A DNA stretch of 64,000 nt, from IMG/VR virus record IMGVR_UViG_3300023110_001773, positions 62,001-126,000 of that record. One strand, given 5' to 3'. Both the position numbers and the translations under genes were made by a program. Shown here piece after piece: positions 56,792 through 60,562 of this stretch (the stretch's first letter is position 1; the number at the start of each line of letters is the position of its first letter). The DNA is from a virus. Below the pieces are notes generated by a model. The model searched no databases, was not told the DNA's origin, and saw only the letters and a list, made by a program, of their open reading frames with translations.

Positions 56792-57361
56792 ATGGCAAAC
56801 CCATTTGAACAAATAAGAGCCAATTCTAACGATCAATCAAAATCGTATAATTGGTACATGAACCAAGTTAGGAACGTTGCGAGAGGAATTAATAATCCTA
56901 GTACAGCGATGTCTTCTAGCATTGCAAAAAGACAAGGGTCATATGACATCGGTTCTATGTATTTGTTTAGATATGATGCAAAACACAAAAGTAAGTTGCC
57001 ATACTTTGACGCATTTCCTCTGTGTCTACCATTTGAACCAACCAACGATGGTTTCTGGGGAATGAATTTACATTATCTACCATATCTTTTACGAGCAAAA
57101 CTGTTGGGCAAATTACTGGAAACCATGAACGATCAGAAACTCACATCACAGTCTCAGATGTCATACAATTGGGATTTGTTGAGTAGTGCGGCCAGATTTC
57201 CAGAAGTAAAACCCTGTGTAAAAAGATATCTGAATACTCAGATGCGTAGTTCTTTTTACAGGATCGATCCATTGGATTGGAAGGCTGCAATCTTTTTGCC
57301 AGTAGAAGATTTCAATACTAGTAAGAGCAAAGTATTTTCAGATTCTAGAGGAATAATGTAA
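56792..57361 (+). CDS. 2: DNA end protector-like protein (gp2 type)
   Basis: From the ATG at 56792 the protein has 189 residues (a GTG at 56786 would add two). The segment MYLFRYDAKHKSKLPYFDAF (about 53-72), then GMNLHYLPYLLRAKL and PCVKRYLNTQMRSSFYRIDP and KAAIFLPVEDF resembles the protein called DNA end protector in marine T4-like phages, which shields packaged genome ends. T4 gp2 itself is longer (274). The neighbour gp4 supports a head-completion role. It overlaps gp54 by one base at 57361. Confidence 0.55.
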   Translation: MANPFEQIRANSNDQSKSYNWYMNQVRNVARGINNPSTAMSSSIAKRQGSYDIGSMYLFRYDAKHKSKLPYFDAFPLCLPFEPTNDGFWGMNLHYLPYLLRAKLLGKLLETMNDQKLTSQSQMSYNWDLLSSAARFPEVKPCVKRYLNTQMRSSFYRIDPLDWKAAIFLPVEDFNTSKSKVFSDSRGIM

Positions 57362-57957
57362 TGAGTCTTAGTAGATTCTTGGGTCACGTTCAAGGAAACG
57401 ACTTAGCAAGAGCAAACAGATTTGAAGTAGAAATTTATGGGCCTGGTAGCGGAAGGTTGCCATCACTATTATGTGAAGAAGCTCAGATACCAGGCTTGCA
57501 AGCACTGTGGTCTCCAACAAAAATAGGAATGTGGACTGAAAACAGAGTTCACGGCATGGAATTTTTTGGGGAATCAGCTGCATTCACTTTCTATTGCGAC
57601 ACGGACTGGAATGTAAGATCGTATTTTGAAAACTGGATGCAACAAGTAGCATCTTTTGAAACCAAAGAACCAAAATATCAAGACACCTATGTTGGGGAAG
57701 TTAAAGTAAAAGTACTCAACAGAAGAGACAGTGAAAGAAAATCTTGGACTATGAAAGAAGCCTTTCCAAGACTATTGAATATTATTCCAGTAGCTCAGGG
57801 TGGCGATGGCATTGTAAGAGTGACAGTAACGTTTGCATTTAGAAGTTGGGAAGCAGGCGGCGGTGGCGGTTCAAGTATTGCGGATATTTACGACACGATC
57901 ACTGGTGGTGGAAACGTGAGAGAGAAAATGAGAGATGTATTGGACAAAGTTTTTTAA
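57361..57957 (+). CDS. 54: Baseplate tail-tube initiator gp54
   Basis: The 198-residue protein is a tube-fold protein: ARANRFEVEIYGP (16-28), LLCEEAQIPGLQ (36-47), FTFYCDTDWNVRSYFENWMQ (75-94) and WTMKEAFPRLLNIIPVAQGG (129-148), with a Gly-rich C-terminal tail (GGGGG) and a helical end. It matches gp54, which with gp48 forms the ring from which gp19 polymerises. T4 gp54 has 320 residues, so this version is compact. Its start is coupled to the preceding stop (TAATG). Confidence 0.82.
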   Translation: MSLSRFLGHVQGNDLARANRFEVEIYGPGSGRLPSLLCEEAQIPGLQALWSPTKIGMWTENRVHGMEFFGESAAFTFYCDTDWNVRSYFENWMQQVASFETKEPKYQDTYVGEVKVKVLNRRDSERKSWTMKEAFPRLLNIIPVAQGGDGIVRVTVTFAFRSWEAGGGGGSSIADIYDTITGGGNVREKMRDVLDKVF

Positions 57958-57977: not shown

Positions 57978-58673
57978 ATGGGATTACCTATTACAGAATA
58001 CCCGCTAGTTGAGGTTTATGTTTATTCAGAAAAAAAGAAGGTCAATTTCAGACCATTTTTAGTAAAAGAAGAAAAACTATTAGTATTTGCAGCTGAAACT
58101 GGTGAGGCCATGGAAATGATAAAGGCCTCCCAGCAGATTGTCACCAACTGTTCTTTTGGAAAAGTTAAGGGTGATGAGATACCAATTTTTGACATGCAAA
58201 ATATATTTCTTGAACTTAGAAAAGCTTCTATAGGAACAGATATTGAAGCGAGGTTTGGATGCGGTCATTGCGAAAAGAAAACCAATGTTACAATTGATTT
58301 AAACAGGTTTAAACTAAAAGAAAGTGAAGATCATTCTCCAATTGTAAAACTAACAGATGAAATGTCTGTCGAAATGAGGTATCCGAAATCGGAAGAACTC
58401 AAAGAGATTGCAGGCAAAGAATCCGATGCAGATATCTATGAAGTATCATCAAGGTGTATAGAGAAAATTTTTATTAAAGATGAAGTCTATGAAGAAATTA
58501 GTGACGGGGATAAAAGAGAATTCATTGACAACATGCCCCCAACACAGTTTCAAAGTATTAGACAATTCTTTGAGACAATGCCGGTATTAGAAAACAAAAT
58601 AGAATTTATTTGTAATGGTTGCGGTAGAGAAAATTATGCATTTATGAATGGGTACATGGATTTTTTCGTATAA
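57978..58673 (+). CDS. 26: Baseplate hub assembly protein gp26 (chaperone-type)
   Basis: The 231-residue protein matches the gp26 family: PLVEVYVYSEKKKVNFRPFL (9-28), VKEEKLLVFAAETGE, and a zinc-ribbon-like pair FGCGHCEKK (about 93-101) with CNGCGRENY (about 211-219). In T4 gp26 acts in hub assembly and is not certain to be in the virion. The reading frame ends GYMDFFV and stop, with a T TTT TTC heptamer over the last two F codons. A -1 shift there would fuse gp26 to gp51 and give a 289-residue product. Confidence 0.85.
   Translation: MGLPITEYPLVEVYVYSEKKKVNFRPFLVKEEKLLVFAAETGEAMEMIKASQQIVTNCSFGKVKGDEIPIFDMQNIFLELRKASIGTDIEARFGCGHCEKKTNVTIDLNRFKLKESEDHSPIVKLTDEMSVEMRYPKSEELKEIAGKESDADIYEVSSRCIEKIFIKDEVYEEISDGDKREFIDNMPPTQFQSIRQFFETMPVLENKIEFICNGCGRENYAFMNGYMDFFV
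58661..58667 (+). promoter_or_regulatory. -1 ribosomal slippery heptamer T TTT TTC
   Basis: In the gp26 frame the codons are TTT (58662-58664) and TTC (58665-58667) preceded by T, an exact X XXY YYZ heptamer. Slippage by -1 re-pairs both tRNAs perfectly at the first two positions and continues as RINLFHENLENYF into gp51. The zero-frame stop follows only two codons later. No strong downstream stem-loop is obvious by eye. Confidence 0.75.
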
Positions 58674-58846
58674 ACCTCTTCCATGAAAATCTCGAAAACT
58701 ATTTCAAAACCAACTTTTTATTGATGCAAGAACATAAATATAGTTTAACAGAGATTGAGAATTGGATGCCTTGGGAGAGGACAGTTTACATTTCCATGCT
58801 AGTTCAACACTTAAAAAAGAAATCAGAAAAATCAAAGAGTCGATAA
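58661..58846 (+). CDS. 51: gp51 (hub assembly factor), expressed probably as a gp26-gp51 frameshift fusion
   Basis: In the -1 frame relative to gp26, 59 codons run from the slippery site to a stop at 58844. The translation contains YFKTNFLLMQEHKYSLTEIE and NWMPWERTVYISMLVQHLKK, the gp51 signature (KYSLTELENMIPWER type). No ATG, GTG or TTG start exists upstream within this frame: it is closed by a stop at 58625, and the only ATG (58724) would remove the conserved NLFHENLENYFKTNF region. Expression by frameshift from gp26 is therefore the best reading. It is followed by the ATG of the tape-measure candidate. Confidence 0.8.
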   Translation, partial: FFRINLFHENLENYFKTNFLLMQEHKYSLTEIENWMPWERTVYISMLVQHLKKKSEKSKSR

Positions 58847-60562
58847 ATGGCGCCATTTTTTACTAGTTTGTTGGGATTTGGGTCGAGAACAATCGGCGGC
58901 CTTGGCCGTGCAATAATGAATCCCATAAAGAAGGTTGGGGGTCTGTTAGGAAACGCTGGCAAGGCTGGTGCTTATTATGGACTAGGAAATGCACTTTTTG
59001 GTGGCAACAACAACGAAGAACAAATTCAATCCGGCGGTTCTGGTGGCGGTGAAATGGGTGGATTCGGTGGAACCGTATCCGGCGCAACACCAGTAAGTAC
59101 CGCAGCCTCTGCAACAAGTGCTTTGTCAGATGCAGATAGTTCTGATCCAGTCGTAAGACAATTACAGGACATCGAAAGAGTCTTAGTATCAATCAAAGGT
59201 GATACATCCCAATTTGTTGGGGGAATGTCAAGAGCCGCACAAGCTGGCCCAAATAAAAATGCGTTGAGAAATATGTTCGGCCGCAGTGGTGGTGGTATTG
59301 GCCCCGCAGCTGCTGGTGGACTTGGACTCGCTTCACTTTTTGCATTGGGTATGGCCGGCAAGATGGGAGACAATGACAAAGGTGATACCGAGGCAGGAAC
59401 TCAAGAAAGATTCGATGCCACCATAGGAAATGAATTAGAAGATTTCGGCGCCACCGCTGGGATGAAGGCGGCAGGAATAGCAGCTGGTGCAGCTGGAGAA
59501 AGAGCATCAAAGGCAGCTATAGAAGCAGGAGCAAACAGAGCAGGAAAAATGGCCGCCTCTACTATAGACACAAGTACTGGCGGGGTGAAATTTGATAGAA
59601 ATGGTACTGCAATTAATAAAGCTGGAGATGAAGTACATGGAGCAGCAAAAGAATCTGCAAGACAATCAATGGAAAAACTCCAGAAAGAAGCAGCAGAAGC
59701 AGCTTCAGAAACAGCTGCAAAAAATCCACAAATAGCAGCGAAGATAACAGCATCTATCGCCAAAAACCTTGGTCAAACTGGTGCGAAAGTTTTACCATTT
59801 GTAGGAGCAGGGTTTAACCTAATTTTTGCAATGGAAAAGGCTATAGCAGGGGATTGGAAAGGAGCTGCATTAGAAACTGCTGGTATGATTCCTTTTGCCG
59901 GAATAGGTGCTGACGTTGGTTCCTTGGTAAGAGATGTCTATAAAGACGTATATGATGTATTCCCAGAAGATGACTCAGAGAATTATGAGGAACGATTCCC
60001 AGAATTATTTAACATGGTTACTAGTGCTATTGCTGACTTGATGTCCTCTAACATGGATAATGCTGTAAATGATCTAGAAGCAGTAGAGGCTAGACCAGAA
60101 GTTTCAGATCGTATGACTGGTAGACGGCGAGGACGAGCTCTAGAGAGACAAAGATCATGGGACAACAAATATGGAAATACACACAATGCAGATGGTAGTG
60201 TAAAAGCAGAACTATTAGAAAGTGCGGTGGAAGCAAGAATAGATACCAATCCTGATCAAACTACTAGTATGATGGATGCAGCAATCGAAACTGGACAAGA
60301 AGCTCTTGGTGGATTGGGAGTTGATGTTCCCCTAAATGATTCTGCTAGAGTAGAGGATATGACTACATCAAGTTTTGAACAGACCAATGCATCATCTAAT
60401 GATGCTCTAGTAGCTGCTCTTGGTGGAATGCCTGGGGCAACAGCTCCAGTACAAGGCGGACAGGGAGAAATCTCTGTACATGTGTCTTCTCCAAAAACAA
60501 GTTTCCCACAGTCAAATTCTGAATTGACTTGGATAAACAGCAACGCATCTGGATTTGTTTAA
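58847..60562 (+). CDS. 29: Tape-measure candidate (gp29 position)
   Basis: The 571-residue protein directly follows the gp26/gp51 pair and is similar in length to T4 gp29 (590), the tail-length ruler. It is Gly/Ala-rich and largely helical (KKVGGLLGNAGKAGAYYGLG near 27-46; AALETAGMIPFAGIGADVGS near 342-361). A long central Ala/Glu/Lys helix region (about 245-310) and a flexible Ser/Gly tail follow. There is no clear sequence match to T4 gp29, so the call rests on order and composition. The start is set by the immediately preceding stop (TAAATG). Confidence 0.55.
   Translation: MAPFFTSLLGFGSRTIGGLGRAIMNPIKKVGGLLGNAGKAGAYYGLGNALFGGNNNEEQIQSGGSGGGEMGGFGGTVSGATPVSTAASATSALSDADSSDPVVRQLQDIERVLVSIKGDTSQFVGGMSRAAQAGPNKNALRNMFGRSGGGIGPAAAGGLGLASLFALGMAGKMGDNDKGDTEAGTQERFDATIGNELEDFGATAGMKAAGIAAGAAGERASKAAIEAGANRAGKMAASTIDTSTGGVKFDRNGTAINKAGDEVHGAAKESARQSMEKLQKEAAEAASETAAKNPQIAAKITASIAKNLGQTGAKVLPFVGAGFNLIFAMEKAIAGDWKGAALETAGMIPFAGIGADVGSLVRDVYKDVYDVFPEDDSENYEERFPELFNMVTSAIADLMSSNMDNAVNDLEAVEARPEVSDRMTGRRRGRALERQRSWDNKYGNTHNADGSVKAELLESAVEARIDTNPDQTTSMMDAAIETGQEALGGLGVDVPLNDSARVEDMTTSSFEQTNASSNDALVAALGGMPGATAPVQGGQGEISVHVSSPKTSFPQSNSELTWINSNASGFV

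Follow-up and report, generated by a model that had tools for sequence, protein, structure and literature searches.

In phage lambda a short tail assembly chaperone, G, and its -1 frameshift-extended form, GT, act on the tape measure protein, as set out by Atkins et al. 2016 (PMC5009743); T4 is still given there as the exception to the conserved G-T frameshifting. For T4-like phages, two papers cite the work of Vladimirov, Gautam and Davidson (2022, Virology 566:9-15). According to the citing text in PMC10885494, some T4-like phages dispense with frameshifting and have one gene for the short chaperone and another for the long fusion, and the citing text in PMC12846349 describes poly-T frameshift signals as known from the TAC-N genes of T4-like phages. 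As far as these citing texts go, the frameshifted T4-like tail chaperone is already known as a kind; it is credited here to the 2022 paper and is not a discovery of the present work.

Here we analyzed a locus of this family in a 64,000-nt stretch of DNA from a T4-like virus, referred to as the window. With the T4-like phages of the 2022 study, to the extent that the citing texts describe them, it shares the gene family, the poly-T site in TAC-N and the existence of a short and a long form, and it belongs to the frameshift type and not to the split type. Our reading is that gp26 and gp51 very probably constitute one tail assembly chaperone gene, from which -1 frameshifting yields gp26 (TAC-N) and gp26-gp51 (TAC-NC). 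It is based on the sequence anatomy, the phase of the site, its conservation, the missing gp51 start, homology, the tube-like neighbour and the predicted fold; that ribosomes slip, how often they do so, in which ratio the two forms arise and what each of them binds are inferred, with lambda as the model for the slip, its frequency and the roles. Our additions are incremental and consist of the breadth over IMG/VR contigs, a Shine-Dalgarno (SD)-like element and downstream structure in relatives, and a possible coupling to the next gene. The abstract of the 2022 study reportedly names genes 26 and 51 and describes conserved frameshifting in several T4-like groups, and the present work extends the published chaperone frameshift to a large sample of IMG/VR contigs.

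Organization of the gp26/gp51 locus

The first gene of the pair, gp26, lies on the plus strand at positions 57978-58673 (231 amino acids plus stop), and its 3' end reads ...ATG GAT TTT TTC GTA TAA. A preliminary description of this DNA had noted an exact T_TTT_TTC heptamer near this end. We find it at 58661-58667, with a single sense codon (GTA) between the heptamer and the 0-frame stop of the short form (TAA, 58671-58673), and its phase in the gp26 frame is the one that a simultaneous -1 slip of two tRNA-Phe requires. As TTTTTTC occurs 16 times on the plus strand of the window, the motif by itself weighs little. The further claim that the -1 frame runs into gp51 is borne out, since this frame is open on the plus strand from 58628 to 58846 (gp51, TAC-C); its useful part starts at the heptamer, 58661.

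Gp51 had also been described as having no usable start codon, with a single ATG at 58724. The second part does not stand, as further ATGs are found at 58766 and 58796 and the ATG at 58724 is preceded by a TTG at 58721; these two are the earliest ATG, GTG or TTG codons of the frame. The first part holds despite the extra ATGs, because the conserved LFHENLENYFKTNF segment of gp51 precedes every start-like codon of the -1 frame. On inspection of the sequence no ribosome-binding site was seen before 58721/58724, and an Rfam search of the gp26/gp51 region gave no match.

According to the proposed mechanism, the majority of ribosomes would terminate at 58671 and release gp26 (TAC-N, 231 amino acids). 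Some ribosomes would slip at T_TTT_TTC, the P-site tRNA-Phe moving from TTT to TTT and the A-site tRNA-Phe from TTC to TTT, both back by one base, and would read F-F-R-I-N-L onward through gp51. The predicted product of this -1 shift at 58661-58667, which also the homology to T4 gp51 points to, is the 289-amino-acid fusion gp26-gp51 (TAC-NC; 57978-58846, plus strand) with the junction DFFRINLF. The roles of lambda gpG/gpGT suggest, by analogy, that the tape measure protein would be bound by both forms through the part they share, and that tail tube subunits would be recruited by the long one. Gp26 is preceded by a tail tube-like gene of the gp54/gp19 type (57361-57957, plus strand), which matches the tail tube family phrog_45 (E 5.6e-30) and Pfam Phage_TTP_2 (E 2.4e-4, below the cut-off of that family), and gp51 is followed by an open reading frame (ORF) that is a probable tape measure gene by position.

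Conservation of the slippery site in related phages

Relatives were collected from named phages and from IMG/VR loci located by gp26 sequence or profiles, and the heptamer was not used as bait; the IMG/VR loci are the best 80 of each of two profile scans. Before counting we set aside T4 and Dhakavirus C6, which are of the in-frame type, the loci L024 and L066, whose gp26 is truncated, and repeats sharing an identical last 90 nt. This resulted in 160 distinct junctions, the window among them; 155 have F-F or F-L at their end, and the five without F-F stand outside the 155 count. In all counts and P values kinship is handled by crude clustering alone (113 cluster representatives).

We observed T_TTT_TTN in 155/155 F-F/F-L junctions, window included, among the named phages and the best 80 loci per IMG/VR scan, and gp51 lies in the -1 frame in every one of these listed junctions. 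Conservation of the heptamer in relatives, which the preliminary description had proposed as a check, is therefore found, also after clustering: the site is present in 113 of 113 representatives among the matches listed, compared to 53.4 expected from codon usage. It is this conservation, and not the occurrence of the motif, that goes beyond chance. All 155 listed junctions have TTT as the first F codon (114.3 expected from codon usage), and the second codon of the site is TTC in 127, TTT in 21 and TTA in 7 of them. F-F is preceded by S, D, N, H or G, and the codon of this variable residue ends in T in 155/155 of the matches listed, with 100.4 expected. In the remaining F-F dipeptides of the same genes, again among the matches listed, T_TTT_TTY is used in just 12 of 157 cases. 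Site, phase and -1 ORF are kept in cyanophages and in phages of Methylophilales, rhizobia, Pseudomonas, Stenotrophomonas, Aeromonas, Vibrio, Cronobacter and Desulfovibrio. Five of six additional cultured phages carry the site as well (Methylophilales phage Melnitz, Sinorhizobium phiM7, Rhizobium RHph_I34, Pseudomonas Astolliot and Desulfovibrio 7757), and the sixth, PspYZU05, has a T4-type in-frame gene.

The five junctions without F-F have no heptamer and belong to three Ackermannviridae (L008, L015, L018) and two Vibrio phages (L016, L017). In the Ackermannviridae (L008:3690-3740, L015:3690-3740, L018:3650-3700) gp26 ends in ATT TTC ATT TAA or GTT TTC ATC TGA, and a gp51-like -1 ORF that has no early start begins at the gp26 end, which points to another kind of slip, perhaps involving a single tRNA at T_TTC. 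In the Vibrio phages K469 and D532 (L016:3600-3640, L017:3580-3620) an ATG overlaps the gp26 stop (TAATG), which suggests reinitiation rather than frameshifting.

Start codons and coding in the -1 frame

Next to the site itself we considered the start codons of gp51. Among the matches listed, the -1 frame of 66 of the 155 loci offers gp51 no ATG, GTG or TTG, neither upstream nor up to 30 nt from the heptamer. The other listed loci have an ATG within 30 nt (55), only a GTG or TTG at that distance (31) or an upstream start only (3). An ordinary gp51 start in relatives had been named as an observation that would speak against frameshifting; such an ATG does occur in these 55/155 listed loci, but all 55 retain the slippery site. 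In loci with an in-frame ATG, separate initiation of gp51 may add to the fusion or replace it in some cases, judging from the sequence.

By the stricter measure of no ATG, GTG or TTG from the upstream stop to +45, the -1 frame is start-less in 57 of 154 listed loci. The post-slip peptide in these 57 has R in 46 cases, followed by I, L or V in all, and its sixth residue is L in 45; among the codon positions the third varies most. A conserved -1 peptide with variable third positions indicates that the segment is protein-coding without a start, and such a segment is consistent with frameshifting. The +1 frame contains stops in the same stretch in 145/154 loci and the -1 frame in 0/154, the latter partly by construction, as gp51 was found as an open frame by profile. 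In the annotated relatives that we fetched, no joined gp26-gp51 coding sequence is given and gp51 is either a separate gene or omitted, so that annotation would gain from a simple rule by which gp26 is joined to the -1 frame where its F-F codons read T_TTT_TTN. The record of Cronobacter phage LPCS28 leaves gp51 unannotated although the -1 ORF exists (L005:3681-3878).

Relation to T4 gp26 and gp51 and predicted fold

Gp26 matches PF12322 (T4_baseplate) with E 9.9e-52 and 176.2 bits, compared to a curated cut-off of 24.5, and phrog_150 with E 3.8e-55. Gp51 matches phrog_634 with E 2.9e-26, PHROGs having no curated cut-off. In a profile search of the whole record phrog_150 spans both frames, covering its positions 5-237 in frame 0 and 226-281 in frame -1, and matches nothing in the record beyond these two frames of the gp26/gp51 locus. 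The 165,637-bp record, which may be incomplete, holds one PF12322 locus, and no second PF12322 gene with an in-frame gp51 domain, as in the T4-type split, was found in it.

T4 gp51 aligns in a single frame with residues 24-275 of the predicted fusion (BLASTP E 3e-7) and covers phrog_150 positions 13-280. T4 gp26 matches the short form of the window (E 3e-6) and stops at phrog_150 position 235, and both T4 proteins belong to PF12322. As T4 gp51 corresponds to the whole fusion and T4 gp26 to the short form, T4 makes both forms from two genes. These are separate, divergently oriented in-frame paralogs, in contrast to the frameshift form and the one PF12322 locus of the window. T4 gp26 retains F-F but codes it as TTC TTT, so that the slippery site is lost, whereas the window has TTT TTC. 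We do not put forward the T4 pair of short and long paralogs as a new insight, since it is already contained in PMC10885494, whose citing text refers to Vladimirov 2022. The in-frame type is shared with T4 by five further fetched phages (L019, L181, L182, L183, L188). One of them, RB43 (L181:3001-4294), departs from the divergent T4 layout: its long in-frame form and its short paralog are tandem genes of the same strand. According to a T4 review (PMC3004832), T4 gp26 and gp51 are hub assembly chaperones and gp51 is absent from the final particle, and genetic studies cited in it place gp26 in the hub, which counts against a purely transient chaperone role. T4 gp26 (L004:5803-6429, minus strand) also weakly matches phrog_1140, the baseplate hub distal subunit (E 9.4e-4), and this may hint at a distant relation to gp28.

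Among solved structures, sequence search with the gp26 profile or T4 gp51 detected no relatives, and fold comparison alone gave one. An AlphaFold2 model of gp26, built from 59 sequences, has a mean pLDDT of 87.9. Residues 1-85 of the model match the HK97 tail assembly chaperone 2ob9_A at rank 2 (Z 6.7, rmsd 3.8 over 84 residues), behind the uncharacterised 3fgx_A (Z 7.2), and the entry after 2ob9_A drops to Z 3.4. The match is modest, with Z under 8, and Foldseek against the PDB alone ranks 2ob9 sixth at a non-significant E of 1.5. A comparison with predicted viral structures gave baseplate hub proteins of the gp26 type as its best matches. The likeness to HK97 is structural only, involves a predicted gp26 fold and compares a 2OB9 chain of 107 residues with 231 residues of gp26; the model thus gives modest support to a TAC fold of the short form. 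The lambda G/GT pair is alike in having a short and a -1 extended form; gp26 differs in its extra C-terminal part beyond the TAC-like domain. Taken together, the conserved heptamer, phase and -1 ORF, the frequently missing gp51 start, the two-frame family model and the HK97 fold match agree with the earlier proposal that gp26 and gp26-gp51 are the chaperone pair of this phage. We also noted two CxxC-type cysteine motifs in gp26 (window positions 57978-58670), both missing from six cyanophage-type sequences aligned with it, and a weak resemblance of its later part to small zinc-binding domains (NrdR, ZitP; Z 3.1-3.4).

Stimulatory signals

A GAGG at position -10 relative to the heptamer is present in many of the relatives, and its spacing resembles that of the dnaX frameshift stimulator. 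The E of the E-G codons at this place is encoded by GAG in 69 of the 113 cluster representatives among the matches listed, compared to 32.4 expected. The mean anti-SD pairing in the listed matches is -6.75 versus -5.35 in synonymous shuffles, and it is stronger than the own null in 107/155. Where a gp51 ATG follows the heptamer, its spacing from the GAGG element would be too large for ordinary initiation. Downstream of the site, folding beats synonymous controls among the matches listed (mean z -1.65, 61/154 below -2), compared to a mean z of -0.35 and 33/465 below -2 in control windows; a first stem 3-10 nt past the heptamer with an MFE at or below -10 is present in just 41 of 154 listed loci. 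In the titles and abstract openings of the literature searched, neither an SD-like element nor a hairpin at the gp26/gp51 site was found as a topic.

These stimulatory signals vary among relatives. In the window the SD-like pairing is weak (-3.8 versus -2.8 for its own synonymous null), and no downstream stimulatory hairpin was found, the 66 nt folding less than synonymous controls (MFE -2.0, z +1.5). Locus L021, whose gp26 is 54% identical, is similar downstream (E -1.9, z 1.5). Going by these values, the slip efficiency in the window may be low.

Alternative explanations

Gp51 could be a protein of its own, translated from an internal start (TTG 58721 or ATG 58724) or through termination-reinitiation, so that no fusion arises. 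The start codons within 30 nt of the heptamer at many listed loci (ATG in 55/155, GTG or TTG in 31 more), the annotation of gp51 as its own gene in several records and the heptamer-less TAATG junctions of Vibrio K469 and D532 are in line with this. However, 66 of the 155 listed loci have no ATG, GTG or TTG upstream or within 30 nt, the -1 frame peptide ahead of any start is conserved, and in the window initiation at 58724 would remove the conserved LFHENLENYFKTNF and would proceed from a site before which no ribosome-binding site is seen. As separate initiation also leaves the synonymous conservation of the heptamer unexplained, we regard it as highly improbable.

The site is at the same time a T run, made up either of six T with a closing C or A or of at least seven T, on which slippage of RNA polymerase instead of the ribosome might produce mRNAs in the gp51 frame. 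Polymerase slippage usually takes place on runs of eight or more, however, and here the run is short and closed by C or A in 134 of the 155 listed junctions. A codon phase fixed as T_TTT_TTN and, in many relatives, a GAGG at -10 together with a folded downstream segment, which act on ribosomes, make this explanation exceedingly improbable. A sequencing or assembly error that broke one in-frame gene might be suspected from the uninterrupted gp51 of T4-type phages, but its probability is negligible and it is already refuted by the comparative data: a 100% identical gp26 occurs in two other IMG/VR records, whose junctions were collapsed into one distinct junction, and the frame relation is the same in 155/155 F-F/F-L junctions among the matches listed.

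The gene downstream of gp51

In the window the gene following gp51 is a 571-amino-acid ORF (58847-60562, plus strand) whose ATG stands immediately after the gp51 TAA, with weak anti-SD pairing (-2.4), and which is probably the tape measure protein, mainly by its position. It matches phrog_23178 (named peptidase, E 2.6e-8); no Pfam family matched it, and the PHROG of the T4 tape measure gp29 gave no match in the record of the window. Equivalent ORFs of Vibrio R10Z and ACG-2014f weakly match tape measure PHROGs (E 5.8e-6 and 3.3e-7).

For 139 loci with a complete gp51 and a long following ORF, taken by its place, we recorded the first ATG of that ORF, beginning the search 30 nt ahead of the gp51 stop. 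This ATG falls no more than 30 nt from the stop in 132 of the 139 listed loci. The large ORF is preceded by a small one in Melnitz, phiM7 and RHph_I34. We consider it possible, though unlikely, that the same slip also gates the level of the tape measure protein through translation coupled to gp51 termination. With such coupling only frameshifted ribosomes would feed the tape measure candidate where gp51 has no own start, and one event would set the levels of long chaperone and tape measure relative to the short chaperone.

In cyanophage MED4-213 the gene after gp51 (L012:3881-5764) contains a VanY-type peptidase domain. Its match to a tape measure PHROG (E 8.4e-13) was discounted because the VanY domain covers the same residues. 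With this peptidase domain, the gene in the tape measure position of MED4-213 may combine functions.
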